Shown here piece by piece: positions 2,702 through 64,000 of a stretch of DNA of 64,000 nucleotides. The notes beneath the pieces were generated by a model that searched no databases, was not told the origin of the DNA, and saw nothing but the letters and a program-made list of their open reading frames with translations. The stretch spans positions 124,001-188,000 of the forward strand of contig SKCR01007815.1 of NCBI GenBank assembly GCA_019454045.1. Reading direction: 5' to 3'. The stretch comes from Zanthoxylum bungeanum (lineage: Eukaryota > Streptophyta > Magnoliopsida > Sapindales > Rutaceae). The translations under genes were made by a program, and so were the position numbers. Within the stretch, counting starts at the first letter, position 1. Each line of letters starts with the position of its first letter.

Positions 2702-3565
2702 CATGTTAATTATGACAATGCGTAAATTGATTAACATGGACCTTATACCTAAATTTGCAATTGATAGCCAACATAAGTATGAGGCATGTGTTGAAGCAAA
2801 AATGCATAGAACATCATTTCATTCCATAGAACGCAGTTCTGAACCCTTAGAACTTGTACACACTGACGTGTGTGATATGAATATTTTGCAAACAAGAGGC
2901 GGTAAAAAGTACTTTGTCACTTTTATCGATGATAGCACAAGATTCGGTTATGTGTACTTGCTGAGGAGCAAATATGAAGCTATTGAGAGCTTTATACACT
3001 ATAAAAACGAAGTTGAAAATCAAATTGGCAAGAAAATCAAAAGAATCAAGAGTGATAGAGGTGGTGAATATGTTCACCATTCGGTGAATAATGTTCTGTG
3101 CACGGAATTTTTCACGAAACCACTGCTCCTTATTCTTCTCAACAAAATGGGATTGCTGAGCGCAAAAACCGAACGTTGAAGGAAATAATGAACGCCATGT
3201 TGACAAGTTTTGGTTTACCCCAGAACTTGTGGGGGGAAACTTTGCTTTCCGTGAACTACGTTCTAAACAAGCTTACTCACAGAAGATTGGACAAGACACC
3301 ATATGAGTTGTGGAAATGTCACGTACCTTCCTACAAATACCTAAAAGTGTGAGGGTGTCTTGCCAAAGTAATGGTTCCTAAACCTAAGAAGGTTAGAATT
3401 GGACCCAAAATTGTTGATTGTATATTCATTGGATATGCTCGCAACAGTAGTGTGTATCGATTCTTGGTACACAAGTCTGAGATTTCTGACATCAATTCGA
3501 ATATGATAATTGAGTCAAGAAATGAGACATTTTTTGAAGAGACATTTCCTTGTAAGGAAAGATAA
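2679..3565 (+). pseudogene. Copia A integrase, frameshifted
   Basis: The frame at 2679-3179 holds the end of the gag-pre-integrase zinc-binding region (KYEACVEAKM). The catalytic core rve follows: VHTDVCD, then FVTFIDDSTRFGYVYLL and KSDRGGEYV. A frameshift near 3100 moves the reading to a second frame, which continues at 3098-3565 with APYSSQQNGIAERKNRTL (the third catalytic Glu region) and then the C-terminal PKPKKVRIGPKIVDCIFIGY segment. A TGG-to-TGA change (V*GC instead of VWGC) lies near 3350. The DDE residues can be placed, but the protein cannot be made as one chain. Confidence 0.85.
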
Positions 3566-11673: not shown

Positions 11674-12900
11674 TTGAATACGAGGGGATATATGTTCTAT
11701 GATACCGAGCATCGAAATGTGTTCGTAGCTCGTTTCGCAAAATTTCTAGAAGTAGAATTTTTTTCAGAAGGTGGTAATCATAGACAGGTTGAGCTTGATG
11801 AAGTCCAACCTGAAAACAACGAACCAACGGAGGAACCTGAAGTTCAAGTAGATGAAGGACCTTCAACACATATACTCCATAGGTCAGAAAGGGTATCTAG
11901 ACCTCCTGAACGCTTGTATTTGATACAAGAAAAGAGTCTAGATGTTCTCTTAGTTGAAGAGACTGATCCTTTCACCTATAGAGAATCGATGTTGGACATC
12001 GACTCCGTGAAATGGCAAAGTGCCATGAAATCCGAGTTAGACTCAATGCATGAGAATCAAGTTTGGGACTTGGTTCCTCTTCCCGAAGGAATTGTTCCTA
12101 TCGGTTATAAATGGGTTTACAAAAGGAAGAGACCTGACGGTAAGGTTGAAACTTACAAGGCCCGACTGATAGCAAAAGGTTACACGCAGTGACCTGACGT
12201 CGACTACGATGAAACTTTTTCACCAGTAGCAATGCTTAAGTCTATTCAGATTTTGCTTTCTATAGCTGCGTATCATGACTACGAGATTTGGCAAATGGAT
12301 GTCAAAATGGCTTTTCTAAATGGATTTCTTGATGAAGAAATCTATATGGGACAGCCGGAAGGTTTTGCGTCCAGCAAAAACTCGGGTATGGTATGTAAGC
12401 TTAAGAAGTCCATTAATGGACTTAAATAAGCTTCAAGAAGTTGTAATCTTCGATTCGACGAGATTATTAGATCGTCTGGTTTTCTCAAGAATTCTGAAGA
12501 ATCATGTGTGTATCAGAAGGCCAGTGGGAGCATGGTCATATTTTTAGTCCTATATGTTGATGACATCCTAATCATTGGGAATGATTTAGGTATGTTACAA
12601 AGCGTCAAAGTGTACCTCTGTAAGAATTTCTCCATGAAGGACCTGAGAGAAGCTTCCTATGTTTTAGGGATAAAACTCTATAGAGATAGACAAAGAAGGC
12701 TGATTGGGTTATCCCAATCAACGTACATAGATAAGATTTTGGAACGGTATAATTTTGGTAACTGTAAGACAGCAAACATACCGTTCAGACATGGGATTCA
12801 TCTTTCAAAGAAGATGAGTCCACAAACAGAAGATGAGAAGGTTAGAATGTCTAACCAACCTTATGCTTCATGTTTGGGTAGCATAATGTATGCCATGTTA
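11674..12900 (+). pseudogene. Copia B reverse transcriptase, stops only
   Basis: In the same frame as integrase, the linker (HRSERVSRPPERL) leads to the RT start KWQSAMKSELDSMHENQVW, then IGYKWVYKRKRPDGK, then a TGA at 12190-12192. The fingers/palm follow: IWQMDVKMAFLNGFLDEEIY, a TAA at 12427-12429 inside GLK*ASRS, and the catalytic YVDDILIIG at 12553-12579. Both nonsense changes fit C-to-T from Arg or Gln codons. RT would copy element RNA in the particle. It is dead as written but unusually well preserved. Confidence 0.9.
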
Positions 12901-13539
12901 TGTACTAGGCCTGATATCAGTTTTGCTGTTAGCGTAACTAGCAGATATCAGTCCAATCCAGATAATGACCATTGGATGGCCATTAAACATATCCTCAAGT
13001 ATCTTAAAGGTACTAAGGATAAATTAATAATTTATGGAGGAAACGAACTACAAGTTAATGGGTACACAGATTCTGATTTCCAATCGGATCCCGATGATAG
13101 AAAGTCTACATCTGGATTCGTATTTACCCTTAACGGAGGTGCAGTTTGTTGGAAGAGTTCCAAACAGGGATCAACAGCAGATTCCACCACTGAGGCGGAA
13201 TATATTGCAGCTTCTGAAGCTGCAAAAGAGGTTGTGTGGATAAAAACATTTGTCACAGAATTGGGAGTTGTCCCAAGTATCAAGAATGCGATTCCGTTAT
13301 ACTGTGATAATATTGGAGCCATTGTGCAATCAAAGGAACCGAGGGCGCATCAGAAGTGGAAGCATGTGGAACGCAAGTACCACATCATTCGAGAGATTGT
13401 GTCGCGATGGGATATTGTCGTGTGCAAGGTACCGAGTGAAGATAATGTAGCAGACCCGCTGACGAGGGCCATACCTCCGAAGTTGTTTGATAAACACATG
13501 GAGTCGATGGGTATTAGATACAATCGTTATTGGCACTAG
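12901..13539 (+). pseudogene. Copia B RNase H, reading frame intact
   Basis: This continues the RT frame from 12508 without a stop to TAG at 13537-13539. Visible are MLCTRPDISFAVSVTSRYQ (RT end), YTDSDFQSDPDDRKSTSG, WKSSKQGSTADSTTEAEYIA (catalytic Glu), LYCDNIGAI (catalytic Asp) and the end VCKVPSEDNVADPLTRAI. The last 343 codons from 12508 are open, but no protein start of their own is expected, because this is the tail of a polyprotein whose upstream part is broken. Confidence 0.88.
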
Positions 13540-22490: not shown

Positions 22491-23119
22491 TTCGGTGGTA
22501 AGAAGAAGAAGAAGAAAGAGCTTCCTAGGTTTTTGCTTTATTGTTTCGGCCAAGCCCACCTTTTGTGATGATTTGGTCCCTAATTTATAATGATTTGAAG
22601 GGATCTCCAACTAGGGAAACAAATCATATTGATTTGGGAGATATTTTCTTAAATTATTTTGGGAACACAATCTCACAAATTTGGTGATGAGAATATCCCA
22701 AATCTTGTTAAATTGGATGGTATCCCAAAATCTTGTTAAATTGGAAAGTATTGATGAGGGAATTTTGACATGTGAATTGCAAGGGATTTTCTCTATTTGG
22801 GAAGGTTTGGGCGTGCATGGTGATGAGTGGTAAATCTATCACTATTTCCCACTCATTTAACATAATATTTTGTATAGTTTCTTGAGTTTTATGAATATTT
22901 TGATGTGTTTTGTGTTATTTTGTAGATAAATAAAGTTGGGAAAGCATTGGAAGCAATTTGGGGCCAAAATAGAGAAAAATTGACAAAATGGCAAATCAGT
23001 AAATTTCCAGCGTCGCGACGCCAAGACCTTCCGCGTCGCGAAGCCTAACGGGCGCCGAACAGTGCTAACGTGCGCCGGGTCCACAAATGAGAATCTGAGA
23101 AAAGTTTGACATTGCTAAC

Positions 23120-23500
23120 GTGCGCCGTGCCACGTGTCACCATCACAGCCGATCTGCTAACATGCACCGTGCCACGTGTCAGCATCCTACGGTGCCGAAA
23201 GTCATCATCACCACGTGTGCCACATGTCACTCCACGACATTTCCGCGTCATCAGCCACATCACCAGGTTGACCAAGTCAAACTGCCACCTCACTGCCACG
23301 TCATCATCAGCGAATCAGAAAGTGCCACGTGTCGCAATCCTACGGTGCCGACAGTCTCTTTCCCACATGTCGCCACGTCAGCATCAATCATTGAGTATCT
23401 AATCCTTATCTGACATGTGGCGGATAAGAATCTTATCGACCAATCAGAATCCGCCACGTGTCACAATAATTGAAACCAACCACTCTGCCACGTGTCACCT
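23120..23500. promoter_or_regulatory. G-box (CACGTG) array in D U3
   Basis: I count six CACGTG hexamers here, mostly as GCCACGTGTCA, plus near-copies such as CCACGTCA and CACATGTC. LTR2 has about nine and LTR3 eight; the diverged LTR at 62654 has about seven, several as GACACGTGTC. CACGTG is the core recognised by plant bZIP (ABRE-type) and bHLH (PIF-type) factors. The array sits 100-500 bp upstream of the TATA box, so an enhancer role is plausible but inferred. Confidence 0.75.
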
Positions 23501-23560
23501 TATCAGCTTATCCAGAATCTGCAAACCGACGAACCAGAGCGTGCCACGTCGACAGAATCT

Positions 23561-23620
23561 GGCATAGCGACGCCAAAGGCCTTGGCGTCGCGACGCTGGA
23601 AGCCTACCAGGGCCTATAAA
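23561..23620 (+). promoter_or_regulatory. Palindrome and TATA box of D LTR 1
   Basis: An imperfect inverted repeat of about 19-bp arms (TAGCGACGCCAAAGG / CCTTGGCGTCGCGACGC) at 23561-23600 is followed by CTATAAATTCAGC at 23614-23626. The GCGTCGCGACGC core is itself a 12-bp perfect palindrome. The same layout occurs in LTR2 (TATA near 29715), LTR3 (near 34355), the 62654 LTR (near 63421) and, on the minus strand, F. Confidence 0.75.
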
Positions 23621-25022
23621 TTCAGCTCGAAATTTCAGTTTTAGTGCACCACTCTCTCTCATCTCTTTGATGTAAAGAAAGAGTTTCTCTCTCTAGTTTC
23701 TTTTAGTTTTTAGTTTTTTTTTTTAGTTTTTAGTTTTGTAAATAATTTTAATTACGTTTTGTTAATATAGTAATTTACTTTTTCTTTTTTTACTTTTTAC
23801 AGTTTTTACTATTTATCATGAAGAGGTAACTTCCCTAGCTAGGGTGAAAGGTAATTCTTTTACTGTTACTATTTAGATTAATCTCCCTTAAAAATAATAT
23901 ATTCACTATTTAAAATATTGACTTAAAAAGGATACCACCAGATTGGTCGGTTGGTAATTCATTTTAATCTGGTTTAAACCTGACTAATCAAGGATACCGC
24001 CAGATTGGTCAGTTGGTAATTTAATTTTGGTTCCGCCTTTATATCTGGTTGGACTTAATTTGACTTAATCAGGTTACCGCCTTTATGGCTGGTTGGAAAA
24101 AGAATCACAAGTTTTTATATTATTTTATGGGAGATATCTAAAATAGTAAATAGTAAAAGTAATTCCTTTACCTTAGGATTTTATTTTATTTTACTTTTCA
24201 ACTTTTACTTTATATCTTTTACTTTTCAGTATTCTTACTTTATGTCTTTTACTTTTAAGTTTTTTACTAGCCCTAGTTATGTGTTAGTTATCTGGGGTTG
24301 TGATGACTTTTAATATCACCGATTTATAAGAGGTTATTTTATAGTTTGGGTAATTTAAAGGTTTACTTATTAAGTCTTAAGCTTAATGCTTCTTGTTGTC
24401 TGATCACCAATAAGATTGATGTGGTAAATCTAAAATGAACTAGACATAGGAATTTTAGGTTTCAGCCTTAGACTTAATAGCCCACGATCTTCCTTGAGGA
24501 TAGATAACCCTTTAATAGATTTCCTTACAAGATAGACATATACCGTCGGGCGGGGGTAGCCATAATTAGAACTTAAACTTAATGAATCCAGATAATTTGG
24601 TTGACATAGACATATGGTTCAATTGGGTTAAACTGGATATTTGCGTCTGACCATCGACAGAGGCTTTTGCATAATTTAGTGTTCCAGGTTAGTAAACTGA
24701 TTTATTACACAAACATAAAATAATCACTTCATCTTTTAAAAGATATTAGAATGATTCACAACCCTAGATCTTTGTGTCTTTTGTTATTTTCCTTAGTATT
24801 TTCTTTTGTCTTTTTATTTATTTATTTATTTAGCAAATCTACAATCAACCAAATCAATCAAGCAATCATTATCTTCTCCCTCAATTAGATATCTGTAAAT
24901 AAATAGATTCAATAATTAATAACAACAGTAGGAATTAAGTCCTCGTGGGATCGATATTTTTATACTACTTGAACGATATGTGCGCTTGCGTTATATGTGT
25001 GTGTTTAAACCGGTCAAGTTTT

Positions 25023-25040
25023 TGGCGCCGTTGCCGGGGA
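25023..25040 (+). other. PBS, tRNA-Asp type, element D
   Basis: TGGCGCCGTTGCCGGGGA lies six bases after the LTR end. It is complementary to the 3' end of plant tRNA-Asp(GTC), the primer class known for Athila-like gypsy elements. This supports a Ty3/gypsy origin for D although no pol is left. The second internal unit has lost this site. Confidence 0.85.
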
Positions 25041-25146
25041 CTTATTTTTCTTGAGTTATTAATTTTGAAGCTATCTCATTTACTTGTATCTAATTTTCTT
25101 TATCTGTAATTTTTATTTCCTTCTTTTATTTTTCAGGTGATTGAAA

Positions 25147-26340
25147 ATGGAACATTATTGGGAGATTGAGAGATTACGTACCTTACAAGAAGATACATCC
25201 CAAATCTAAGAGCAACAGTCCGGTTTTCTGAGGCCTGTTGTCCAGCCCAACAATTATCACTGGATGCCAGAACCAAGCAATACCACATTTGCTCAACAGA
25301 ACGCAATAAGGAGATATGACATATGTAATGGTAACCACCCTAGAGATTATTGCGATTACAACTACCATACAGGGTGGCAGAGCTATCAAGATCCTTCATG
25401 GTATGACGAGCCATCACATTTCACAGAACCACATTTTCCATCTTATCCACCATCTACCTATGATCTTCATCAACAACCAGAACCATCAGAGGAAGATCAG
25501 TTGCCAAACATGCTCGAAGATATGTTCAAGAAACGAAAAGAAAAGTTGGATACAATTCTTGAAACAAGTCAGAATCAATTTGAAAGTATTCAGAGACAAT
25601 CAGAATTCATTCAGAGGATGACAGATCAAATGAGACAATTCACAGAAAACCAGAACTACATACCTCAAGAACCAGTTTCAGATGACACTGATGAAGCCTT
25701 CGAGTACCAATCATTTCACAATGACACTTCAACAGAGGAGAAGGCTGAGCAGTATCAACAACCAGAGGTATCAGTTCAGGAGCCCGAACCGGCAAAGTCT
25801 CAATTTGACTTTTATTATTCAAATTTTGACGAGGATGAAGCTGATCTATTTGTACCAACTGCACCAACAACGGAGGATCAAACTTTCAATCCTTAAAATG
25901 AAGATCTTGGAGCATGCTTTACCATGATGTTTGAAGAAGATCTACCTGAACCATCCATTCCAGTCGTATCAGAGGATGAAAACCTAATGTCAGAAACATC
26001 TTTGCATCCTCAGGTTGGCAATTTTGAAGCATGTATTTCACAGATGACAGATGAAGAGCTGAATACAAAAATTTTACAATACATCTGTGAAGAAAATGGG
26101 GAGCAAGAAACAGGGCAAATGGAAGAGCAAATGTCTGACCTTAATAAAGATCCAGAGCATTCAGGAGAAACATCGTTGTTTTGGGGAGTACAAATCAAAG
26201 ATATCGCCCAGAAGCTTGACAGAATGGAACTCCCATTCCAAGTCAAGCACCATACGAGACCTCCTGATTTTCTTTCTTTCTTTCTTTGTAGGAACCACTG
26301 GAGTAACAATGAGCAAAAAGGTGGCACGAGCACTGAATAG
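25147..26340 (+). pseudogene. Element D gag-like ORF1, two in-frame stops
   Basis: ATG at 25147 opens a frame that continues to 26340 with stops only at 25207-25209 and 25894-25896, about 398 codons. A short Cys/His motif (YDICNGNHPRDYC, about 25312-25350) resembles the knuckle-like motif seen in gypsy gag. A Gln/Glu-rich coiled-coil-like stretch follows (EKLDTILETSQNQFESIQRQ), then an acidic region. Position right after the PBS suggests gag. No retropepsin, RT or integrase motif follows. Identity as gag is inferred from place and composition; no strong match by eye. It is absent from the second unit. Confidence 0.6.
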
Positions 26341-26975
26341 GACAAAATTCTTTTTGCCACTTTACCGTTGGAAGAGACCCTTCAAAAGAAATGCTCACGG
26401 GATTGTCTTTAATCGGACATCCAAAACGACATTGAAACCTCCTTAACAGATGAATTTCAATCACGTCTGGCTGAAGACGAAAAATTTAGCGCTAGCAGGG
26501 AGGCAACCCATGCAATTTGTTGTAATTTTTATTTTCATATTTTGTGTATACATGTTGTAGAGTTTTTAATTTTGTGTGTTATTTTTGTAGGGAAAAGCAC
26601 AAACGAAGCATTTTAAGACAGAAGGAATTGTGTTTGGCAATCAAAGAAGAGAAATAATTCATTAGCGATGGCTGAGTAAGGAATAAAATCTTGAGACGCA
26701 TCCTAATGAATTTATACTAAGCGAGTGGCGTATTGCGTACACAATTCCGTTGCCTTAATTATTGCTTTGATTCACTTTTCTGTTGTAATTATCTTTATTT
26801 TCGTAGACAGGATCCAAACTTTTTGACATTTAGAGATTTCTTTTGTTGTTTAGCTAACAATCGTCGTTTGGAAGATATTAGTGCTATTATTACTCACCCT
26901 TTTTCAGGTACTATAAATTCAGCCCTTCATTACACTTTTGAAGGAATCCAGAGTTGAAAAAGAAATACATAAAAA
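26281..26975 (+). other. D linker between ORF1 and LOG frame
   Basis: A pyrimidine run ending TTTCTTTGTAG (to about 26291) looks like a splice acceptor. A short frame follows, MSKKVARALNRTKFFLPLYR, ending at 26446. TTTAGCGCTAGCAGGGAGGC at about 26487-26506 is a motif I associate with the post-pol region of plant gypsy elements (also on the minus strand near 47440 in K1). CTATAAATTC at 26911-26920 lies 56 bases upstream of the LOG ATG. The stretch is conserved in the second unit (30904-31611). Confidence 0.55.
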
Positions 26976-27629
26976 ATGGAAGCCACTTCAAGAAGACGAG
27001 TTGAAAACATCTGTGTGTTTTGCGGTACTAGTGTTGGTACTAAGCCACAATACGTAGAGGCAACACATGAATTGGGTCGAGTCTTAGCTGCAAGGAATAT
27101 GCACTTAATATATGGCGGAGGCAATCTCGGACTTATGGGGATCGTTTCAAAGGCTGTACAGGAAGGAGGCAATCATGTTTTGGGAATCATCCCAAAACCC
27201 TTGGCAGAGGCAAATCTTATTGGATCATCAAACGGAGAGGAACTGATCGTGCCAGGTATGTCTGAACGACTGGTAGAAATGATTAACCGTGCTGATGCTT
27301 TTATCGCTTTGCCAGGTGGCTTGGGTACATTAGAGGAAATTTTTATAGTTCTATCTTGGGCGAACCTGAACATACACCAGAAACCGCTTGGACGGTTTAA
27401 TGTTGATGGATTTTATGATTTTCTTTGTGTGTTTCTTGATGATGCCCGAAGAAATGGGTTCGTGTCAAAACCTTTAAAAGAACTCATCTTTACTGCCAGA
27501 ACTGCTCCAGATCTAATTGACCAACTCTTAGCCTATGAACCACAATTTGACCCTATCCTTTCAAAGATAAATTGGTCCGAGGACGATCGTGGTAAGAGGC
27601 GTCGGATTAATCTGGATATTAACCTTTAA
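26976..27629 (+). CDS. LOG-like cytokinin riboside 5'-monophosphate phosphoribohydrolase, captured by D
   Basis: This is an intact 217-codon frame, typical LOG length. LOG enzymes release active cytokinin bases from their nucleotides in the cytosol. The Rossmann-like N-terminus reads ICVFCGTSVG (12-21), YGGGNLGLMG follows at 46-55, then the signature PGGLGTLEE at 113-121. R98 and E121 fall where the family's conserved active-site Arg and Glu lie. The usual MHxRKxxM motif reads MSERLVEM here, with His and Lys replaced, so activity is uncertain. There are no introns, though plant LOG genes normally have several. The gene lies between D LTRs on the sense strand. The start is chosen at ATG 26976 after AAAAA; the upstream frame ends at 26957. 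A related lysine-decarboxylase-like fold member is the alternative name. Confidence 0.9.
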   Translation: MEATSRRRVENICVFCGTSVGTKPQYVEATHELGRVLAARNMHLIYGGGNLGLMGIVSKAVQEGGNHVLGIIPKPLAEANLIGSSNGEELIVPGMSERLVEMINRADAFIALPGGLGTLEEIFIVLSWANLNIHQKPLGRFNVDGFYDFLCVFLDDARRNGFVSKPLKELIFTARTAPDLIDQLLAYEPQFDPILSKINWSEDDRGKRRRINLDINL

Positions 27630-28933
27630 CTTTTCTTGTAAGATTTTTAGCTAACCAGGTATTATCTTCTAAACTATTCTTCTACTGTATAAGACATTGG
27701 GGACAATGTCTCATTTAGGTTTGGGGGAGGGAATTAGTTAATCAGTACCTTGTTTTTAGTTGTGTGTTATTTTTATTTTTAGTCCAATTTTTTTCGAAAA
27801 ATACAAAAAAATTGAAAATTTTTCAAAAATTACAAAAATATTTTGTGTTTTTATTTTGACTAAAAAGGTGAAATTGGTAAGAGATAGCTGAGTAATGAGT
27901 TTCCAATCCTGAGACGTATCTAAACCTATTTCGAAACAAGTTAATTTTTGTTTATTTCATTTTGAATTATTTAATTTGTGAATTCTCCTTAAAACGGACT
28001 AAAATGGATCTTCATATGCTCAGTTGACAGATATTATCAACATATAGTAACATACGGACATGAGCTAAAATTGAAAAGTTTGTAATATTCAGTGCTCTAG
28101 TTTAATTGGAGGAAACATCTCAAAAAACAATGGAGTAAAAAAAAAACATTTGAGATCCGAGTTATTAACTCTGTAAGGGTGTTTTAACACCTAGTGCCAT
28201 AAACCAACTGGTTTGGGAGTCATTGGCCCAAAGCTCGTTACATGGATCGAAGATGCTGCAAAAATATACATATCTGAAGTCTGAGTAATTAAGTTCGTAG
28301 GGGTGTCTTAACACCTGGTGCCCTAAAGCCAACTGGTTTGGGAGTCACCGACCCAACACTCGCTACATAGACGGAAGATATTGTATATAAATAAAAAATA
28401 GAGAAAAATCAAAGAAAAAAATCAGAAAAATGAGAAAAATTATTCCATTGCTACAAAAGGTGTGAAATCTGATAGAACTTTAGAACAAAAATATTACTCT
28501 CTTATCGACTGCACTTATGACTGTTGTGGGAAAAAATAACTTGTTTAATATTTTGTTGGCTATGTATATGAAGAATGGTAAAAATAATCGGAGAATTTAC
28601 TTATTCAGTAATTTAGAATAAAACAAAACAACTAGTAACTTGGAGTAGAAGTTTCACTTGATTAGTCACTAACATCTTTATTCTATTTTCTCTTGTCTTT
28701 TTGCTTTTGTGTGCATTAGTTTTACTACCTTTTTACTTTTGTAAAATGTTTGTGGGTATCATTGCTGTAAACCCTCACGAGACTACAACTCGTCCACTAG
28801 GGACACCTAGGGGTTTAAAGGCTTGTTGCATACGCTAAATGCAACCGTGATCCCTACGAAAGTGGCTTAGTTAATTTATTTATGTTATTTTATGTTTTGC
28901 TCGAGGACTAGCAAAATGTTAGGTTTCGGGGTG
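27630..28933 (+). other. D 3' non-coding region with PPT
   Basis: After the LOG stop comes GACATTGGGGACAATGTCTC at 27692-27711, then TTTGGGGGAGGG, a post-ORF motif also seen on the minus strand near 55090 in K2. Two copies of a ~124-bp unit follow, at about 28152-28275 and 28276-28386. Each has a hairpin-like GGTGTTTTAACACC or GGTGTCTTAACACC and CAACTGGTTTGGGAGTCA. The stretch ending in TTAGGTTTCGGGGTG is the PPT before LTR2 at 28934. No coding frame. Confidence 0.7.
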
Positions 28934-30903
28934 TGATGAGTGGTAAATCTATCACTATTTCCCACTCATTTAACCTAATATTTTGTATAGTTTCTTGAGT
29001 TTTGTGAATATTTTGATGTGTTTTGTGTTATTTTGTAGATAAATAAAGTTGGGAAAACATTGGAAGCAATTTGGGGCAAAAATAGAGAAAAATTGACAAA
29101 ATGGCAAATCAGTAAATTTCCCACGTCATGACGCCTAACGTACGACGAATAGTGCTAACGTGCGCCGGGTCCACAAATCAAAATTTGAGAAAAGTTTGAC
29201 TTTGCTAACGTGTGACGTGCCACGTGTCACCATCACAGCCGATCTGCTAACATCCACCGTGCCACGTGTCAGCATCCTACGGTGCCGACAGTCATCATCG
29301 CCACGTGTGCCACGTGTCACTCCACGTCATTTCCGCGTCATCAGCCACATCACCAGGTTGACCAAGTCAAACTGCCACCTCACCGCCACATCATCATCAG
29401 TGAATCAGGAAGTGCCACGTGTCGCAATCCTATGGTGCCGATAGTCTCTTTCCCACGTGTCGCCACATCACCGCCACGTCAGTATCAATCATTGAGTATC
29501 TAATCCTTATCTGACACGTGGCGGATAAGAATCTCATCGACCAATCAGAAGCCGCCACGTGTCATAATAATTGAAGCCAACCACTCTGCCACGTGTCACC
29601 TTATCAGCTTATCCAGAATCTGCAAACCGACGAATCAGAGCGTGCCACGTCGACAGAATCTAGCGTAGCGACGCCAAAGGCCTTGGCGTCGCGACGCTGG
29701 AAGCCTACCAGGGCCTATAAATTCAGCTCGAAATTTCAGTTTTAGTGGCACCACTCTCTCTCATCTTTTTGATGTAAAGAGAGAGTTTCCCTCTCTAGTT
29801 TCTTTTAATTTTTAGTTTTTTTTTTTAGTTTTTAGTTTTGTAAATAATTTTAATTACGTTTTGTTAATATAGTAATTTACTTTTTCTTTTTTTACTTTTT
29901 ACAGTTTTTACTATTTATCATGAAGAGGTAACTTCCTCAGCTAGGGTGAAAGGTAATTCTTTTACTGTTACCATTTAGATTAATCTCCCTTAAAAATAAT
30001 ATATTCACTATTTAAAATATTTACTTAAAAAGGATACCGCCAGATTGGTCGGTTGGTAATTCATTTTAATCTGGTTTAAACCTAACTAATCAAGGATACC
30101 GCCAGATTGGTTGGTTGGTAATTTAATTTTGGTTCCGCCTTTATGGCTGGTTGGACTTAATTTGACTTAATCAGGTTACCGCCTTTATGGCTGGTTGGAA
30201 AAAGAATCACAAGTTTATATATTATTTTATGGGAGATATCTAAAATAGTAAATAGTAAAAGTAATTCATTTACCTTAGAATTTTATTTTATTTAAATTTA
30301 TTTTACTTTTCAACTTTTATTTTATATCTTTTATTTTTCAGTATTTTTACTTTATGTCTTTTACTTTTAAGTTTTTACTAGCCCTAGTTATGTGTTAATT
30401 ATCTAGGGTTGTGATGACTTTTAATATCACCAGTTTATAAGAGGTTATTTTATAGTTTGGGTAATTTAAAGGTTTACTTATTAAGTCTTAAGCTTAATGC
30501 TTCTTGTTGTCTGATCACCAATAAGATTGATGTGGTAAATCTAAAATGAACTAGACATAGGAATTTTAGGTTTCAGCCTTAGACTTAATAGCCTACGATC
30601 TTCCTTGAGGATAGATAACCCTTTAATAGATTTCCTTACAGGATAGACATATACCTGTCGGGTGGGGGTAGCCATAATTAGAACTTAAACTTAATGAATC
30701 CAGATAATTTGGTTGACATGGACATATGGTTCAATTGGGTTAAACTGGATATTTGCGTCTGACCATCGACAGAGGCTTTTGCATAATTTAGTGTTCCAGG
30801 TTAGTAAACTGATTTATTACACAAACATAAAATAATCACTTCATCTTTTAAAAGATATTAGAATGATTCACAACCCTAGATCTTTGTGTCTTTTGTTATT
30901 TTC
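28934..30903 (+). mobile_element. Element D LTR 2, 3' end deleted
   Basis: It begins TGATGAGTGG and is collinear with LTR1 up to TTTTGTTATTTTCCT. It then jumps straight to sequence matching 26266 onwards (GATTTT...TTTGTAGGAACC). The lost part equals the last ~220 bp of LTR, the PBS and nearly all ORF1, about 1.47 kb. Both breakpoints read TCCT, so microhomology-mediated deletion is likely. Confidence 0.88.
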
Positions 30904-33550
30904 CTGATTTTTTTTCTTTCTTTGTAGGAACCACTGGAGTAACAATGAGCAAAAAGGTGGCACGAGCACTGAATAGGACAAAATTCTTTTTGCCACTTTA
31001 CCGTTGGAAGAGACCCTTCAAAAGAAATGCTCACGGGATTGTCTTTAATCGGACATCCAAAACGACATTGAAACCTCATTAACAGATGAATTTCAGTCAC
31101 GTCTGGCTGAAGACGAAAATTTAGCGCTAGCAGGGAGGCAACCCAATGTAATTTGTTGTAATTTTTGTTTTCATATTTTGTGTATACATGTTGTAGAGTT
31201 TTTAATTTTGTGTGTTATTTTTGTAGGGAAAAGTACAAACGAAGCATTTTAAGACAGAAGGATTTGTGTTTGGCAATCAAGAAAGAGAAACAATTCATTA
31301 GCGATGGCTGAGTAAGGAATAAAATCTTGAGACGCATCCTAATGAATTTATACTAAGCGAGTGGCGTATTGCGTACACAATTCCGTTGCCTTAATTATTG
31401 CTTTGATTCGCTTTTCTGTTGTAATTATCTTTATTTTCGTAGACAGGATCCAAACTTTTTGACATTTAGAGATTTCTTTTGTTGTTTAGCTAACAATCGT
31501 CGTTTGGAAGATATTAGTGTTATTATTACTCACCCTTTTTCAGGTACTATAAATTCAGCCCGTCATTACACTTTTGAAGGCATCCAGAGTTGAAAAAGAA
31601 ATACATAAAAAATGTAAGCCACTTCAAGAAGACGAGTTGAAAACATCTGTGTGTTTTGCAGTACTAGTGTTGGTACTAAGCCACAATACGTAGAGGTAAC
31701 ACATGAATTGGGTCGAGTCTTAGCTACAAGGAATATGCACTTAATATATGGTGGAGGCAATCTCAGACTTATGGGGATCGTTTCAAAGGCTGTACAGGAA
31801 GAAGACAGTCATGTTTTGGGAATCATCCCAAAACCCTTGGCAGAGGCAAATCTTATTGGGTCATCAAACGGAGAGGAACTGATCGTGCCAGGTATGTCTG
31901 AACGACTGGTAGAAATGATTAACCGTGCTGATGCTTTTATCGCTTTGCCAGGTGGCTTCGGTATATTAGAGGAAATTTTTATAGTTCTATCTTGGGCGAA
32001 CCTGAACATACACCAGAAACCGCTTGGACTGTTTAATGTTGATGGATTTTATGATTTTCTATGTGTGTTTCTTGATGATGCCCGAAGAAATGGGTTCGTG
32101 TCAAAACCTTTAAAAGAACTCATCTTTACTGCCAGAACTGCTCCAGATCTAGTTGACCAACTCTTAGCCTATGAACCACAAGTTGACCCTATCCTTTCAA
32201 AGATAAATTGGTCCGAGGACGATCGTGGTAAGAGGCGTCGGATTAATCTGGATCTTAACCTTTAACTTTTCTTGTAAGATTTTCAGCTAACCAGATATTA
32301 TCTTCTAAACTATTCTTCTACTGTATAAGACATTGGGGACAATGTCTCATTTAGGTTTGGGGGAGGGAATTAGTTAATCAGTACCTTGTTTTTAGTTGTG
32401 TGTTATTTTTATTTTTAGTCCAAATTTTTTCGAAAAATACAAAAAAATTGAATATTTTTCAAAAATTACAAAAATATTTTGTGTTTTTATGTTTTTATTT
32501 CGACTAAAAAGGTGAAATTGGTAAGAGATAGCTGAGTAAGGAGTTTCCACTCCTGAGACGTATCTAAACCTATTTCGAAACAAGTTAATTTTTATTCTCC
32601 TTAAAACGGACTAAAATGGATCTTCATATGCTCAGTTGACAGATATTATCAACATATATAGTAACATACGGACATGAGCTAAAATTGAAAAGTTTGTAAT
32701 ATTCAGTGCTCTAATTTAATTGGAGGAAACATCTCAAAAAGCAATGGAGTAAAAAAAAAAAAAACATATGAGATCCGAGTTATTAAGTTTGTAAGGGTGT
32801 TTTAACACCTACTGCCATAAACCAACTGGTTTGGGAGTCATTGGCCCAAAGCTCGTTACATGGATCGAAGATGCTCTAAAAATATACATATCTGAAGTCT
32901 GAGTAATTAAGTCCGTAGGGGTGTCTTAACACCTGGTGCCCTAAAGCCAACTGGTTTGGGAGTCACCGACCCAACAATCGCTACATAGACGGAAAGATAT
33001 TGTATATAAATAAAAAATAGAGAAAAATCAAAGAAAAAAATCAGAAAAATGAGAAAAATTATTCCATTGCTACAAAAGGTGTGAAATCTGATAGAACTTT
33101 AGGACAAAAATATTACTCTCTTATCGACTGCACTTATGACTGTTGTGGGAAAAAATAAGTTGTTTAATATTTTGTTGGCTATGTATATGAAGAATGGTAA
33201 AAATAATCAGAGAATTTACTTATTCAGTAATTTAGAATAAAACAAAACAACTAGTAACTTGGAGTAGAAGTTTCACCCATAGTCACTAACATCTTTATTC
33301 TCTTTTCGCTTGTCTTTTTGCTTTTGTGTGCATTAGTTTTACTACCTTTTTACTTTTGTAAAATGTTTGTGGGTATCATTGCTGTAAACCCTCACGAGAC
33401 TACAACTCGTCCACTAGGGACACCTAGAGGTTTAAAGGCTTGTTGCATACGATAAATGCAACCGTGATCCCTATGAAAGTGGCTTAGTTAATTTATTTAT
33501 GTTATTTTATGTTTTGCTCGAGGACTAGTAAAATGTTAGATTTGGGGGTG
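30904..33550 (+). mobile_element. Element D internal region, second copy
   Basis: It matches 26266-28933 of the first unit throughout: the MSKKVARALNRTKFF frame, the GCGCTAGCAGGGAGGC motif, the TATA-like CTATAAATTC at 31547-31556, a LOG frame, the GGGGACAATG motif near 32337 and the two hairpin repeats (about 32770-33000). PPT TTTGGGGGTG at 33541-33550 abuts LTR3. PBS and ORF1 are missing. Confidence 0.88.
31612..32265 (+). pseudogene. LOG-like gene, second copy, decayed
   Basis: It is the same 217-codon gene as 26976-27629, but ATG 31612-31614 is followed at once by TAA (GAA to TAA at codon 2). The rest stays open to 32265. I count about 13 further amino-acid replacements against about 3 silent changes relative to copy 1. 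Several hit motifs: PGGLGT is now PGGFGI, YGGGNLGLMG is now YGGGNLRLMG, and CGTS is now CSTS. This excess of replacements and the lost start mark a gene evolving without constraint. A GTG at 31651 could in theory serve as start, but the active-site loop is damaged anyway. Confidence 0.88.
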
Positions 33551-35766
33551 TGATGAGTGGTAAATCTATCACTATTTCCCACTCATTTAACCTAATATTT
33601 TGTATAGTTTCTTGAGTTTTGTGAATATTTTGATGTGTTTTATGTTATTTTGCAGATAAATAAAGTTGGGAAAGCATTGGAAGCAATTTGGGGCCAAAAT
33701 AGAGAAAAACTGACAAAATGGCAAATCAGTAAATTTCCCTCGTCGCGACGCCTAACGTGCGCCGAACAGTGCTAACTTATGCCGGGTCCACAAATCAGAA
33801 TATGAGAAAAGTTTGACTTTACTAACGTGTGACGTGCCACGTGTCACCATCACAGCCGATCTACTAACGTGCACCGTACCACGTGTCATCACCTACGGTG
33901 CCGACAGTCATCATCCTACGGTGCCGACAGTCATCATCACCACGTGTGCCACGTGTCACTCCACGTCATTGCCGCGTCATCAGCCACATCACCAGGTTGA
34001 CCAAGTCAAACTGCCACCTCACCACCACGTCATCATCAGCGAATCAAGAAGTGCCACGTGTCGCAATCCTACGGTGCCAATAGTCTCTTTCCCATGTGTC
34101 GCCATGTCACTGCCACGTCAGCATCAATCATTGAGTATCTAATCCTTATCTGACACGTGGCGGATAAGAATCTCATCGACCAATCAGAAGTCGCCACGTG
34201 TCATAATAATTGAAGCCAACCACTCTGCCACGTGTCACCTTATCAGCTTATCCAGAATCTGCAAACCGACGAACCAGAGCGTGCCACGTCGACAGAATCT
34301 GGCGTAGCAACGCCAAAGGCCTTGGCGTCGTGACGCTGGAAGCCTACCAGGGCCTATAAATTCAGCTCGAAATTTCAGTTTTAGTGGCACCACTCTCTCT
34401 CATCTCTTTGATGTAAAGAGAGAGTTTCTCTCTCTAGTTTCTTTTAGTTTTTAGTTTTTTTTTAGTTTTTAGTTTTGTAAATAATTTTAATTACGTTTTG
34501 TTAATATAGTAATTTACTTTTTCTTTTTTTACTTTTTACAGTTTTTACTATTTATCATGAAGAGGTAACTTCCCCAGCTAGGGTGAAAGGTAATTATTTT
34601 ACTGTTACTATTTAGATTAATATCCCTTAAAAATAATATATTCACTATTTAAAATATTGACTTAAAAAGGATACCGCCAGATTGGTCGGTTGGTAATTCA
34701 TTTTAATCTGGTTTAAACCTAACTAATCAAGGATACCGCCAGATTGGTCGGTTGGTAATTTAATTTTGGTTCCGCCTTTATGGCTGGTTGGACTTAATTT
34801 GACTTAATCAGGTTACCGCCTTTATGGCTGGTTGGAAAAAGAATCACAAGTTTATATATTATTTTATGGGAGATATCTAAAATAGTAAATAGTAAAAGTA
34901 ATTCCTTTTACCTTAGTATTTTATTTTATTTTATTTTATTTTACTTTTCAGCTTTTACTTTATATCTTTTACTTTTCAGTATTTTTACTTTATGTCTTTT
35001 ACTTTTAAGTTTTTACTAGCCCTAGTTATGTGTTAGTTATTTGGGGTTGTGATGACTTTTAATATCACCGGTTTATAAGAGGTTATTTTATAGTTTGGGT
35101 AATTTAAAGGTTTACTTATTAAGTCTTAAGCTTAATGCTTCTTGTTGTCTGATCACCAATAAGATTGATGTGGTAAATCTAAAATGACCTAGACATAGGG
35201 ATTTTAGGTTTCAGCCTTAGACTTAATAGCCCACGATCTTCCTTGAGGATAGATAACTCTTTAATAGATTTCCTTACATGATAGAAATATACCTGTCGGG
35301 CGGGGGTAACCATAATTGGAACTTAAACTTAATGAATCCAGATAATTTGGTTGACATAGACATATGGTTCAATTGGGTTAAACTAGGTATTTGCGTCTGA
35401 CCATCGACATAGGCTTTTGCATAATTTAGTGTTCCAGGTTAGTAAATTGATTTATTACACCAACATGAAATAATCACTTCATCTTTTAAAAGATATTAGA
35501 ATGATTCACAACCCTAGATCTTTGTGTCTTTTGTTATTTTCCTTAGTATTTTCTTTTGTCTTTTTAGTTATTTATTTATTTAGCAAATCTATAATCAACC
35601 AAATCAATCAAACAATCATTATCTTCTCCCTCAATTAGATATCTGTAAATAAATAGATTCAATAATTAATAACAATAGTAGGAATTAAGTCCTCGTGGGA
35701 TCGATATTTTTATACTACTTGAACGATACGTGCGCTTGCGTTATACGTGTGTGTTTACGCCGGTCA
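33551..35766 (+). mobile_element. Element D LTR 3
   Basis: It is complete, from TGATGAGTGG to CGCCGGTCA, 2216 bp, followed by target duplication CATGG. It has about eight CACGTG hexamers and a duplicated CCTACGGTGCCGACAGTCAT segment near 33892-33927. At several sites it shares bases with LTR2 against LTR1 (for example CTGACACGTGG, AATCTCATCGACC). Confidence 0.92.
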
Positions 35767-35771
35767 CATGG

Positions 35772-35979: not shown

Positions 35980-38900
35980 ATCGCCCCCACTTTGATGGGG
36001 CTTGTACAGTGTGTGCAGTAACAACCCTATCAAAGTCATGCATGCATTTTTACTTACCTGGTTCATCGGTAATTTTCGGACTTACCTGTTGTTTCGCTTC
36101 GATCTCTGAGTTGGGTTGATGGCGAGGTGCTTCGACCCCTGGGATTTCTTCCCGAACCATGCTGGGTGTGAGATGCTTCGATCTCTGGGATTTATTCCCG
36201 AACTAAATTGAGTTGGGTGCGTCGACCCCTGGGCTTCATTCCCGAACCACCGGGTGTGAGATGCTTCGATCTCTGGGATTTATTCCCGAACTGAGTTGAG
36301 TTGGTGGCGAGGTGCTTCGACCCCTAGGCTTCATTCCCGAACCACCGGGTATGAGATGCTTCGATCTCTGGGATTTGTTACTAAACTGAGTTGAGTTGGT
36401 GGCGAGGTGCTTAGACCCCTGGGCTTCATTCCCGAACCACCAGGTGTGAGATGTTTCGATCTTTGGGCTTTTTTCCCGAATTGAGTTGAGTTGGTGGTGA
36501 GGTGCTTTGACCCCTGGGCTTCATTCCCGAACCACAGGGTGTGAGATGCTTTGATCTCTGGGATTTGTTCTTGAACTGATTTGAGTTGGTGGCGAGGTGC
36601 TTCGACCATTGGGCTTCATTCCCGAACCACCGGGTGTGAGATGCTTCGATCTGTGGGATTTATTCCCGAAATCTCTGGGCTTCATTCCCAAACTATGCTA
36701 AGTTGATGGCGAGGTGCTACGACCGCTGGGCTTTATTCCTGAACCATGCTGTGTGTGAGATGCTTCGATCTCTGGGCTTTATTCCCAAACTGTGCTGAGT
36801 TGATGGCGAGGTGCATCGACCCCTGAGCTTTATTCCTGAACCATGATGGGTGTGAGATGCTTCGATCTGTGGGCTTTATTCCCGAACTGTGCTGAGTTGA
36901 TGGCGAGGTGTTTCGACCCTTGGGCTTTATTCCCGACCCATTCTGGGTGTGAGATGTTTGGATCTCTGGGCTTTATTCCTGAACTGTGTGGGTGATAGCG
37001 TCTTGGTCCTCATGTGTGACTCTTCGATCCACTGGGGGGTTTTCCATGATGATGAGGTGTTTCGACCTCTGGGATTTATTCCCAAACTGTTGATAATATG
37101 GGCCTCGCCCCCTAGGATTCATTCTTGAACTGTCGATAATTTGGGCCTCGACCATGTGATTCATTCCCAAAACTGTCGATAATGTGGGCCTCGACCCTAC
37201 GATTTATTCCTGAGGTTCCTCTATTCCTCTTCATTCTTGGAGTTGCTCGTCCTCGCCGCTCTTTTTTCTTTTTCTTCAAAGCCTGCGAACACAAAATAAA
37301 AATTGTGTGTATGCGACGTGTATGCATGTATGCATGGATACATTCCCTATTCCGATGGGTTTTCTTTGTCCTATTGGCTTGATGTCATCTTTGGTTAGGC
37401 ATTCCTTGCGCTAGAGGGTTTTCTTCACCCCTTTAGAAATCCTCCTGGCCTTTGGTGCCCCTTGGCCTGCTTAAGATCCCTTACTTGTGGGGTGGTAGAT
37501 TGGTCATCCCCAGACCTGGCTTAACTTTCTGATCTTGCTACCTACATCGAGTCAAGGTGGATTACGCCTTCTTGAAATCAGCCTCATCCTTTTGGGATCA
37601 TGTCTTCCGATTCTCAGGTTTCTCAATATGCTCTCTCCCTGAAATTGGACTCCATGGTCCGTTACTATATGATGCGGTATTCTGTATCGACATACTATAT
37701 TACGAGCTATGAAATAGTCCTAATAGTTATACATATTTTTGTCCTCAAAGAATGCCCAGTAATGAAACCAGAGAACCTTCAAAACACTCAATGCAACTCA
37801 AATCCAAGTCTTTGAATAAATCATCTAAGCCAGACTCACAGTGTGTGTGCGCAAAGGTTCATTTAAAGCTTGATTCCTAGGTAAGCCAACTCAATGATTT
37901 CGTTTCAAAAATTGGGATCGATGGGTCAAACCAACCTAGATATCTCAATTATGCTCTGCAATTGCTTTTTCTGTACTCAATATGGTATGATTTTCTTTTT
38001 TTGTTCTTTCGTCTTTTTTTTTTCAACACACCTACCCTTTAAGGTAGCATTTCTCCTCATGGTGATCCTAATACTCGCTCATGGGTAGCTTCACGCTTAT
38101 CGGTTATAGGTGGTTTAATTTTTTTCCTTAGAGACTTTTCTTTTACTTTCAACCATACCACACATCATAACACAAGCAAATCAGGATAGATATCTAAGCA
38201 AATAGTCATTCATCGACCTGTAATTTCTTCGACTAGTCATTTTACCAACTACTCAGGTTTTCACTACTAAAAGCCTATAATTAAGTGCTTACGAGTCTAA
38301 CATAGATCAACTACTCAAAGTGTCAATTAAAAGTACGTCAAGAACTTATCGTTTCTAAGATTTTACCCTAAAGCAAACAATTTCATCATTGGACGTATGC
38401 TTAACTATTAAGGACTAAGAACAAATAATTTTTTTTCTAGCTGAAGGCCCCCCAGTGGTCTTTCTACTCTGGCTGTAAAATTTTCTGTTCTCACTGTGCG
38501 GGGTACTGTCAGATTGGCCCCAGCTTTGGTCAAAGCTTGTAGTTGCTCGGTAATTTTGGTGATGTTGGACACCTTAACTGCCTGATGCATCCATGCTTTC
38601 TAACCTCTTCTTGACAAGTCTTCCTTATTTTCTAACCCAACAGATATCTATGATGGCTTTTAAAACTAGGGTTTAGCATGATACGTGTATGCATGAGATG
38701 CATGTGGTTATCAAAATAGCATATATCATTCCGACCTTATTCCTCCCACACTGGTTGTAAGTCCATTTCTGTCTTAGGTATGGCTTATTTTATGCACCAA
38801 TGTGGGATGCACAAAATTGTTCTCTCCTACGCTACAAGAGTGAACCTTGGCTACCTCAGTCCATTTCCATCGGTAAAAGACAAAGACCGCCCATTTACAA

Positions 38901-47311: not shown

Positions 47312-48235
47312 TAATATTGTATGGGTTGTACTAATACCTACATAAATACATATGTAAACTAATAAACTATCAAATATCACACAATAAAATAAAAATAAAG
47401 ACAAGAAAAATATAAATAAACAAATACAAGGATTGCCTCTCCGCTAGCGCTAAGTTTAACGTCTTTAACCAGATGTTACCACTCAAGTGGTCATGGTGGC
47501 TTCAATGTAGCGGACCGGGTAGTCTCATGTGCCTTCTTCTTTGGTATCCACCCAAATGGTCTCTTTTTATGGCGTTTTAGGAATGGTTGCAGTTTTGGCT
47601 GTGGAAGATCTTCTTTGTTTGGCTTAATTGCGGGTTTACCGTGTGTGTGACTTGAATGCATGGAGACATGTCTAACGTATGGTCGTCATCTATTCCAACT
47701 CCCTTCCCTAAAATGTCTATCATGTGACATTCTTCATCATGGTGAGGACTCAGCATGACCTTGAAAACACTGAAGGTGACTTCTTCATCTTGAACTCTCA
47801 TTGTCAGTTCACTTTTCTGTATATTAATGATCGCTCTGTCTATTGCCAATAAAGGTCTCCCAATGATGATTGGAATGTCATGATCCTCTTCCATTTCAAG
47901 AACAAGGAAGTCATCAGGAAAGTAAAACTTATCCACTTTAACCAACACGTCCTCTACTATTCCTCCCGAGTAGGTGATAGATCTATATGCTAACTGTAAT
48001 GTTACTGTGGTTGGCTTTACCTCACCTATGCCCAACTATTTTTAGATGGATAAGGGCATGCGATTGATACTTGTACCCAAATCGCATAGCGTCTTACCAA
48101 AATATCGATTCCCAATAGTGCACGGTATGGTAAAGCTGCCAGGATACGTACTTTGAGTATTTATTCTTAAATGAGTTGGACTCGCGCAAATCAAATCGTT
48201 GTTTGAACATTGGATGGTCATTAATTCAAAGATTA
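47312..48235 (-). pseudogene. Gypsy K1: protease region joined to 3' region
   Basis: On the minus strand, the retropepsin-like domain starts just inside 48235. It has the active-site motif [11 protein letters not shown] at about 48051-48083, a stop, then an open 152-codon frame 48035-47577 reading GIGEVKPTTVTLQLAYRSI and DIPIIIGRPLLAIDRAII, typical of Ty3/gypsy protease. There is no RT, RNase H or integrase after it. The sequence passes to a CTTAGCGCTAGCGGAGAGGC motif (about 47433-47452) and a post-ORF stretch. The last ~90 bp (about 47321-47413) repeat at 55186-55276 in K2. Confidence 0.8.
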
Positions 48236-61792: not shown

Positions 61793-62653
61793 TGTAGACA
61801 TTGCATTTTTGCATGACCCTGATGATGAGCCTCGTATGGAGGCACTACCTGAAAAGTTACGGAAGTTGTGAAAAACGAATGCTGGAAGGAAGGAAAACCT
61901 CCAAAATTAGCCCCTCATCGGATTCAGACTCACTATCCAGCCTCTGTTCAACCATCTCAGCCCCTTAGCTTCTGACCTCATAGCCTGCTCCCACAGCCTC
62001 TGCTCATTATATTCAATCCATGTCGCGTCAGTCCATTATCCTCAGCCCCAGCCTCAGCCCATCAGCCCCAGCCTAGGACCGCATAGCCCTTGCTCCATCC
62101 AGCACCTGATTCGTCAGTCCATTATGCCATTGCACCTTTCAACTTCAGCACATCCACCCTCTGACCAAGCAGCCCATGCATAATCTTCCCAAATACGATA
62201 AAATCTCCTTAGTTATGAGAGCATCAACACTTTCCAATTTAATGAGATTTTTGGGATCTCATCCTTACCAATTTAACAAGATTTGAGATCTCCTCATCAC
62301 CAAATTTATAAGATTTTATTCCCAAAATAATTTGATAATATATTTCCCAAATAAACATGATTTGTTTCCCTATTTGGAGATCCCTTCAAATCATTATAAA
62401 AGGGACCAAGTCATCACCAAAGGGGATGGGCTCTTTTCTTCTTCTTTTGAGGCAACACCAACATCTTCATCATCAGTTGGCAGCCCTTTCATTCAACACC
62501 TCCACCACCTGCTTGCACTTTCAAACCAAGAAAGAGATATTGAGTGACATGAGAGCAAGAACCTGATAACAAAGAAAGGGAAGAGGACCGGTAAAAAAAA
62601 GGAAAAAAACGAAAACAAAAAAAAGGAGAAATAATAAAAAACTAAGCGGCGGC
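61793..62653 (+). mobile_element. Element E-family LTR (plus strand), cut by D-type LTR
   Basis: It starts TGTAGACATTGCATTTTTGC, then GATGATGAGCCTCGTATGGA, matching the minus strand of 42080-42134 and onward. It includes CATTATAAAAGGGACC (about 62392-62407), a TATA region that corresponds to 22570-22590 on the minus strand. It breaks at 62653, where a D-type LTR begins. Confidence 0.82.
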
Positions 62654-64000
62654 TGATGAGTGGTATTTATATCACTATTTCCCACTCATTTAACTTAATA
62701 TTTTGTATAGTTTCTTGAGTTTTATGAACGTTTTGATGTGTTTTATTGTTATTTTGCAGATAAATAAAGTTTGGACAGCACTGGAGGCAATTTGGGGCAA
62801 AACCGGACAAAAATGCGTCAACCGGGTTATTTTCATCTTCTGCGCGTCGCGACTCTGAATCACAGCGCGCCGCGACGCCCAGCGTGTGCCGGTTCTGCTA
62901 AAATGCGCCATGGTCAACGGGTCAACAATTTGAAAAGTTTGACTTTGCTAAAATGCGCCGTGCCACGTGTCACCATCACATCCCATCTGCTAACATGCGC
63001 CGTGACACGTGTCAACATCATATGCTGCCGACACTCTGACATGACACGTGTCGCCTCGTCATCAGCCATGTCAGCGGTCAACGAGTCAACCTTGCCACGT
63101 GTCATGCCACATCATCGTCCACGTCAGCAGGTCAACCGAGTCAACTTGCCACGTCAGCCTCAGCCAATCAGAGCATGACACGTGTCGCCACGTGTCGCAA
63201 TCCTATTGTGCCGACAAATGCAACACACGCCTACGCCACGTCAGCGCCACGTCATCGATGACGTCATCACAATAATTGAGAATTAGCCGCCTTGACACGT
63301 GTCGCGTGTACAGTCAGCCGCCTTGATGACGTGTCGTCTCCTCAGCGTGCCACGTCGACGAATCCAGCGTCGCGACGCTGAGATCCTTGGCGTCGCGACG
63401 CTGGAATAGTGAAAAATCTGCCTATAAATTCAGCGCGAAATTTCAGAATTTTATATACCTTTTCTCTCTCTTGATTTCTCTCTCTAGAGAGAGTTTCTCT
63501 CTCTAGAATTTTTATTTTTTTTAGTTTTTAATTTTTAGTTTTGTAATTTATTTTAATTACTTTTTGTAATAATAGTAATTTAATTTTTACTTTTTACTTT
63601 TTACAGTTTTTACTATTCACCATGTTGAAGTAACTTTTTCAGCTAGGGTGAAAGGTAATTCTTCTACTATTGCTATTTAGATTAATCTCCCTTAAAAATA
63701 ATATATTCACTATTTAAAATATTGACTTAATAAGGAATACCGCTATATTGGTCGGTTGGTAATTTAATTTTAATCTGGTTTAAACCTGACTAATCACGGA
63801 TACCGCCAGAATGGTCGGTTGGTAATATTATCACAAGTTTATATATTATTTTATGGGAGATATCTAAATTAGTAGTAGTAAAAGTAATTCCTTTTACCTT
63901 AGCATTTTATTTTATTGTAATTTACTTTTCAGCATTTTTACTTTATGTCTTTTATGTTTTTACTAGTCCTAATTATGTGTTAGTTAATTAGAGGTTGTGA
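62654..64000 (+). mobile_element. Diverged D-type LTR, running off the window
   Basis: TGATGAGTGGTATTTATATC start; about seven CACGTG hexamers; GCGTCGCGACGC palindromes near 63368-63405; TATA box CCTATAAATTCAGC near 63420; then the CT-rich leader and GGTCGGTTGGTAAT repeats (63751-63830) as in D LTR1. It is clearly more diverged than the three D LTRs are from each other. Whether it carries a LOG gene lies beyond the window. Confidence 0.85.

Follow-up and report, generated by a model that had tools for sequence, protein, structure and literature searches.

A LOG-family gene as 3' cargo of an abundant, non-autonomous and probably Athila-type LTR retrotransposon family in Zanthoxylum bungeanum

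The window analysed here is a stretch of 64,000 nucleotides from the genome of Zanthoxylum bungeanum. From position 26976 to position 27629 on its forward strand there is an intronless frame, open from ATG to stop over 217 codons, which scores 160.8 bits against the LONELY GUY (LOG) family profile TIGR00730 (cut-off 96.35) and 118.4 bits against Pfam PF03641 (cut-off 27), and which contains the motif PGGxGTxxE in the form PGGLGTLEE. Its best relative of solved structure, found by a search of the PDB, is Arabidopsis At2g37210 (E 1.1e-59, 205 bits). Against NF058542, the equivalog profile of cytokinin riboside monophosphate phosphoribohydrolase, the frame reaches 109.7 bits, below the cut-off of 300. 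The frame lies inside a composite LTR retrotransposon with the following parts, given in window positions:

22816..22820, no strand: left target-site duplication CATGG, read from the letters
22821..25016, plus strand: LTR1, 2196 bp, from repeat comparison
25023..25040, plus strand: primer binding site TGGCGCCGTTGCCGGGGA, a primer-site-like stretch after LTR1 read from the letters, which we take to be the complement of a tRNA-Asp 3' end
25264..25896, plus strand: gag-like remnant frame of 210 aa, without Pfam match, by eye like the gag tail of the B body described below
25924..26340, plus strand: second remnant frame, 138 aa, without Pfam match
26900..26907, plus strand: TTTTTCAG, a splice-acceptor-like stretch of putative function, 68 bp 5' of the LOG ATG
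26976..27629, plus strand: LOG-family frame, 217 aa, intact, from the open frame and the profile scores
27630..28933, plus strand: 3' internal region of the cassette, common to the B body as well, from alignment
28934..30906, plus strand: LTR2, truncated at its 3' end, from repeat comparison
30907..33550, plus strand: second internal region, without its 5' part, from repeat comparison
31612..32265, plus strand: second LOG copy, broken, with a stop at codon 2, from alignment
33551..35766, plus strand: LTR3, from repeat comparison
35767..35771, no strand: right target-site duplication CATGG, read from the letters

The whole insertion, from 22821 to 35766, can be written as LTR-LOG-LTR-(broken LOG)-LTR with CATGG at either side, and its paired LTRs, primer binding site and target-site duplication are those of an LTR retrotransposon. 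The open frame, the profile scores and the LTRs at 22821-25016 and 28934-30906 bear out what a first-pass annotation had claimed for this locus, i.e., an intact and intronless LOG frame on the sense strand between LTRs. The same annotation had described the element, whose body we denote D, as devoid of protease, reverse transcriptase (RT) and integrase, and none of the three is recognised by Pfam in either of the frames between LTR1 and LOG that reach or exceed 120 aa, of which there are two. We infer that the composite is a single insertion, reshaped by unequal recombination and a deletion. The K2P distance is 0.0389 between LTR1 and LTR3 and 0.0353 between LTR1 and LTR2, and with the substitution rate of 3.92e-9 given for Z. 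bungeanum in the accessible part of PMC8417289, the former value corresponds to about 5 million years. Between the two internal regions the distance is 0.0238 (K2P), less than between the LTRs (0.035-0.040). Directly 3' of the element there is a tandem array (36106-36988) whose periods are 95 and 97 bp, and elsewhere in the window there are Copia-type gag and RT frames (1578-2243 and 12508-13539) and repeats at 6.4-8.0 kb and 14.0-15.6 kb, spaced by 7.6 kb.

The first-pass annotation had raised two objections against itself, namely that no other element of this type would carry LOG and that the LOG frame would be a separate insertion inside this one, and both fail. A protein search of the genome, in which only the best candidates were scored, finds at least 150 element copies of LOG at 93-100% identity. 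In the compared copies LOG is continuous with the element sequence, which excludes that it was inserted separately into one element: the 135 bp immediately 5' of LOG can be aligned in all 60 fetched copies, with the motif TTTTCAG inside this interval in 56 of them, and on the other side of LOG the internal region reaches the border of the LTR in 28 of 30 copies, ending sooner in the remaining two (L002 and L004). As judged from these alignments, the intronless LOG-family gene is the 3' cargo of an LTR retrotransposon, multiplied along with the element.

The upstream part of the element is not the same in all copies. Among the 60 fetched LOG copies, 36 have body D, as in the window, 22 have another body (B), and two have neither. 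According to the alignments, LOG and the 3' non-coding region that follows it are a cassette common to the two bodies: six long stretches that were compared with the window agree with it at about 96% identity over LOG and at about 92-94% over the 3' region. The LTRs of B and D resemble each other in parts only. Body D has kept gag-like remnants alone. Body B retains, besides gag, a protease-like region and a stretch that resembles an integrase tail, and some 0.6 kb before LOG it has a frame for a cysteine-rich protein (CRP). The gag of B matches PF03732, a profile that is not lineage-specific, with 81 bits in one copy (L066), and weak protease matches, below the cut-offs, occur in three B copies (L065, L068 and L069). 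The frame after the protease region is without Pfam match, and by eye we take it to be integrase-tail-like. Since the integrase-tail motif falls inside the same 1.5-kb upstream stretch in 11 of the 12 B copies where the post-protease motif is visible, the B copies appear to share the loss of the intervening region, including RT. No RT or integrase core was found by Pfam in the copies examined. Nor was an RT-bearing partner found among 135 gag matches, where the longest open frame has 1058 aa; in this search five of seven long stretches were scanned with Pfam at frames of at least 150 aa only. Two further parts of the window resemble body B: an LTR-like fragment at 62653-63960, which has 79-84% identity to parts of LTR1, reaches up to 86% against the beginning of an LTR from body B, and a 152-aa frame at 47577-48035 on the minus strand, without Pfam match, resembles by eye the frame in the protease region of B.

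On a tree of 58 copies, built from LOG and its flank, B and D labels are mixed over the branches, with 12 to 13 changes of label, at least four of which are forced by well-supported branches. When the labels are shuffled, the mean number of changes is 17 to 18, and values as low as the observed ones occur in 5 and 9 of 500 shuffles. The two bodies are partly clustered and yet not separate, a pattern that we read as probable exchange of the cassette between them. Recombination between distantly related Athila elements has been reported (PMC2410132, accessible part). The family most likely belongs to the Athila lineage of Ty3/gypsy elements, as suggested by the primer site, the position of the extra frame at the 3' side and the by-eye likeness of the integrase tail; for gag and the extra frame, what was seen is the PF03732 match of one B copy, which is shared by other lineages too, and the location of LOG before the 3' LTR.

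The CRP frame of body B, about 182 aa long, occurs about 0.6 kb 5' of LOG in relatives such as L026, L065 and L067, and is absent from the window copy. In the two copies that were scanned it scores 29.5 and 30.7 bits against Viral_NABP (cut-off 23), and 28.4 and 27.8 bits against Carla_C4 (cut-off 20.9), and by these Pfam cut-offs it is predicted to be a nucleic-acid-binding, cysteine-rich protein of carlavirus type. It has 420 relatives, and among the 120 listed, most of them without an organism name, the named organisms are all plants (Xanthoceras, Populus, Acer, Orobanche and Rhamnella). The frame is uninterrupted without masking in 8 of the 22 B copies, and when gaps are masked, it is free of inner stops in 16 of the 22. 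To quantify how often CRP and LOG occur together, consider the listed places of exact 30-mers up to contig C283, a sample that is independent of the quality of the frames. The exact CRP 30-mer lies 585-636 bp upstream at 14 of 33 LOG places in this sample, and the exact D 30-mer lies 405-412 bp upstream at 4 of the 33. Conversely, the exact LOG 30-mer lies downstream of 14 of 100 exact CRP places, while about 16 would be expected if LOG followed every CRP. Viral CRPs are reported to be silencing suppressors, one of which induces hyperplasia (PMC12172455, accessible part).

The number of copies was estimated over the Z. bungeanum assembly (3.96 Gb in 51,709 contigs), in which a nuclear copy of matK has its best match, at 86% identity, in Zanthoxylum calcicola, with mostly other Rutaceae genera next. 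A 30-mer from LOG occurs exactly at 3,529 places, and with at most three mismatches at 22,548 places, a count in which both haplotypes may be represented and some fragments may be included; the reversed 30-mer, used as control, occurs at none in either case. With the same tolerance, a 30-mer from body D occurs at 9,826 places and one from CRP at 23,555. A motif pattern of host-type LOG occurs at 22 places in the genome. A protein search for host LOG exons was swamped by the element copies, and a scan of viral contigs gave no confirmed relative.

Whether the element LOG could act as an enzyme can be considered from residues with proposed roles in the LOG of C. glutamicum, where Arg99 and Glu122 are the putative catalytic residues and where Met96, His97, Lys100, Glu125 and Trp129 are the putative prenyl pocket (PMC4979012, accessible part). 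The window LOG retains the catalytic residues, as R98 and E121, together with the Met and the Trp of the pocket, while the other three of the five pocket residues are changed, His to Ser, Lys to Leu and Glu to Ile. The same holds for the family: the catalytic Arg and both Glu of the motif are kept in 58 of 58 element copies, and the changed pocket is found with Leu in 57, Ile in 57 and Ser in 56 of the 58. Among the 120 best relatives, the Arg is kept in 108 and the second Glu in 116, and the pocket residues Lys100, Glu125 and His97 are kept in 10, 10 and 30, respectively. All nine positions checked are kept in all six LOG relatives from Xanthoceras. In 10 of the 120 best relatives, including P0009, P0013, P0015 and P0017, the catalytic Arg is replaced by Gln, and these relatives may be inactive or changed in function. 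From the retained catalytic residues and the altered pocket it follows that the element LOG may well still be an enzyme, with a substrate that has shifted in its lineage. The first-pass annotation had proposed that the element can supply an activator of cytokinin; the catalytic Arg and Glu agree with that proposal, but cytokinin activation is doubtful because three of the five proposed prenyl-pocket residues differ.

Consider next the possibility that the captured LOG is an inert passenger, i.e., dead weight whose open frames reflect the youth of the copies. The LOG set contains 61 copies, the 60 fetched ones (including the first window copy) and the second window copy, and 53 of the 61 are of full length without inner stop. 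This large fraction is in part as the passenger reading would have it, since the 60 fetched copies are the best matches, so that intact frames are over-represented among them. When L015 and L061, whose frames are shifted, are left out of the dN/dS estimates, 58 copies are used, for which dN is 0.024, dS is 0.150 and dN/dS is about 0.16, a ratio that is biased downward by the choice of copies according to protein likeness; the difference in the 3' flank is 0.095. The ratio is 0.15 for pairs of B with D, 0.17 for D with D and 0.14 for B with B, and it is 0.10 when the copies are picked by likeness to the window and 0.18 when they are picked by likeness to AtLOG3. The effect of such picking can be illustrated by neutral simulation. 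When the best 60 copies are taken out of 3,500 or 22,548, dN/dS becomes 0.47-0.65 at a dS of 0.055-0.09 per copy, so the observed ratio of about 0.16 at a pairwise dS of about 0.15 lies below what neutral picking gives. When copies of all ages are simulated, the best 60 give ratios of at most 0.31, but they are then nearly identical, with dS of 0.002-0.003, unlike those observed. CRP, which was not used in the picking, has a dN/dS of 0.30 over 229 pairs of 22 copies. These ratios, together with the catalytic residues found in every one of the 58 copies, argue against dead weight.

The two LOG copies in the window, on the other hand, differ by 14 nonsynonymous and 3 synonymous letters, one of the changes being the stop at codon 2. 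They have diverged neutrally, with no sign of constraint after insertion, just as a passenger would. The low dN/dS over the family, taken together with this neutral pair, means that selection seems to act on element lineages that still transpose, and not on this particular insertion. At five positions that are uniform in 54 or more of the 57 other copies, the window LOG has a divergent residue, L140R being one of these changes, and this copy may itself be impaired. We consider the passenger reading unlikely.

Another possibility is that the mRNA of a LOG gene from Zanthoxylum or some other Rutaceae was captured recently, and that dividing cells now receive active cytokinin through it. The intronless frame in sense orientation, the retained catalytic residues and the LOG elements in print for Citrus, which also belongs to the Rutaceae (PMC9289625, accessible part), are in line with this possibility, and the mRNA capture that the first-pass annotation had proposed is upheld as far as an intronless 3' cargo multiplied with the element is concerned. 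Its timing and source are another matter. The element copies have about 50% identity to AtLOG3, and the 120 best relatives, at 48-89% identity, include proteins of Xanthoceras, Populus, Reevesia and Paulownia; several of the listed relatives each represent dozens of member sequences. Because of this low identity, and because these nearer relatives come from other plant orders, recent capture of this host's mRNA is doubtful, and the changed His, Lys and Glu of the pocket speak against a present supply of cytokinin. We therefore regard this whole scenario as quite improbable. In a quick tree of 52 rows, the relatives group with the window LOG to the exclusion of AtLOG3 and AtLOG8 (support 82), where the exclusive clade is partly a matter of choice, the rows having been drawn from the 120 matches most like the window. 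A careful tree of 31 rows leaves the base unresolved, and both trees are without the host LOG genes of this plant. With moderate confidence, we favour a single old capture of LOG, which would predate this plant family. A bacterial origin is not favoured, as the PDB search gives two LOGs of Arabidopsis higher scores than those from bacteria.

That the window frame is a domesticated host gene in use by the plant is highly improbable, for although Populus P0042 and P0055 in the LOG tree are annotated as LOGL10, the frame lies between LTRs, has diverged neutrally from the neighbouring copy, has five residues that are rare among the 57 other copies, and exists beside host-type LOG motifs at 22 other places.

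The reading that we prefer, with a probability of about 60%, is that of a very abundant family of non-autonomous LTR retrotransposons, probably Athila, which is copied in trans and which has a selected LOG accessory gene captured long ago. The proteins that copy both bodies would be provided in trans by another element, and the LOG cassette would move between the bodies through recombination. Lineages that keep transposing would be selected for an intact LOG, descended from the ancestor captured long ago, while copies once inserted would decay neutrally. Among the least certain steps, LOG would be produced from a 3', perhaps spliced, RNA of the element, and would serve the element as a phosphoribohydrolase. 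It may then increase active cytokinin in those cells whose transposition events are inherited, or, in view of the changed pocket, it may cleave another nucleotide; CRP, where present, may dampen RNA silencing.

From here one may go further and view CRP and LOG as a two-gene accessory module of an old plant retrotransposon lineage, in which a silencing suppressor of virus type and a nucleotide hydrolase, derived from a hormone-activating enzyme but re-tuned to a different substrate, would affect the silencing and the nucleotide or cytokinin signals of the host cell to the benefit of the element, and in which the cassette would be traded between bodies. This extension we put forward tentatively, and would sooner bet against it than for it. 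If the module works, plant retrotransposons would manipulate host signalling as viruses do, and one genome would contain about 22,000 hormone-enzyme-like stretches. The role of extra frames in plant Ty3/gypsy elements becomes directly testable, since LOG can be assayed by a simple enzyme reaction and CRP by a standard test for silencing. There is also a warning for annotation, since among plant genes called "LOG-like" some may belong to transposons.

Steinbauerova and colleagues reportedly described, in 2011, two Athila-like elements similar to LOGL4. A LONELY GUY/YgdH domain is in print for Gypsy LTR elements of Citrus sinensis and C. clementina, and appears for a Gypsy element of Populus trichocarpa when a filter is off, in PMC9289625, the accessible part of which calls the result "in line with" Steinbauerova et al. 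2011. The statement of the first-pass annotation, that no retrotransposon with LOG cargo had been described, is thereby overturned, and LOG as an extra domain of Ty3/gypsy elements is already known from what that paper makes accessible. It is the sole report of LOG cargo in retrotransposons that we found in the open-access literature; no mention was found in the accessible parts of PMC7264820, PMC11728184, PMC6317226 and PMC13317346. For a CRP-type frame in a retrotransposon, or for the pairing of CRP with LOG, no report was found in the open-access literature. As far as our searches show, what is new is the coupling to a CRP of carlavirus type, the sharing of one cassette by two bodies that are both non-autonomous, the scale, and a pocket that has changed while the catalytic residues are kept.

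The element LOG shares with plant LOG enzymes, such as AtLOG3 and AtLOG8, the family, the motif PGGxGTxxE and the catalytic Arg and Glu, and differs from them by being intronless, by its identity of about 50% to AtLOG3 and by three changed pocket residues. The CRP shares with those of carlaviruses, allexiviruses and mandariviruses (PMC12172455, accessible part) the match to both Viral_NABP and Carla_C4 and a basic stretch followed by a Cys cluster; unlike them, it sits in a retrotransposon body. The Gypsy elements of orchids with an m6A demethylase (PMC9289625, accessible part) are similar in that an enzyme domain has been acquired by a plant Gypsy element; there, the enzyme and the host are others, and the domain is called functional in the title. 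Closest are the LOG Gypsy elements of Citrus and Populus in the same paper, as far as its accessible part describes them, where LOG/YgdH is likewise an extra frame of Ty3/gypsy elements and where Citrus, like the present host, belongs to the Rutaceae. Compared with those elements as described, the present case is a non-autonomous composite from a huge family, with a cassette common to two bodies and, in one of the two, a CRP beside LOG.
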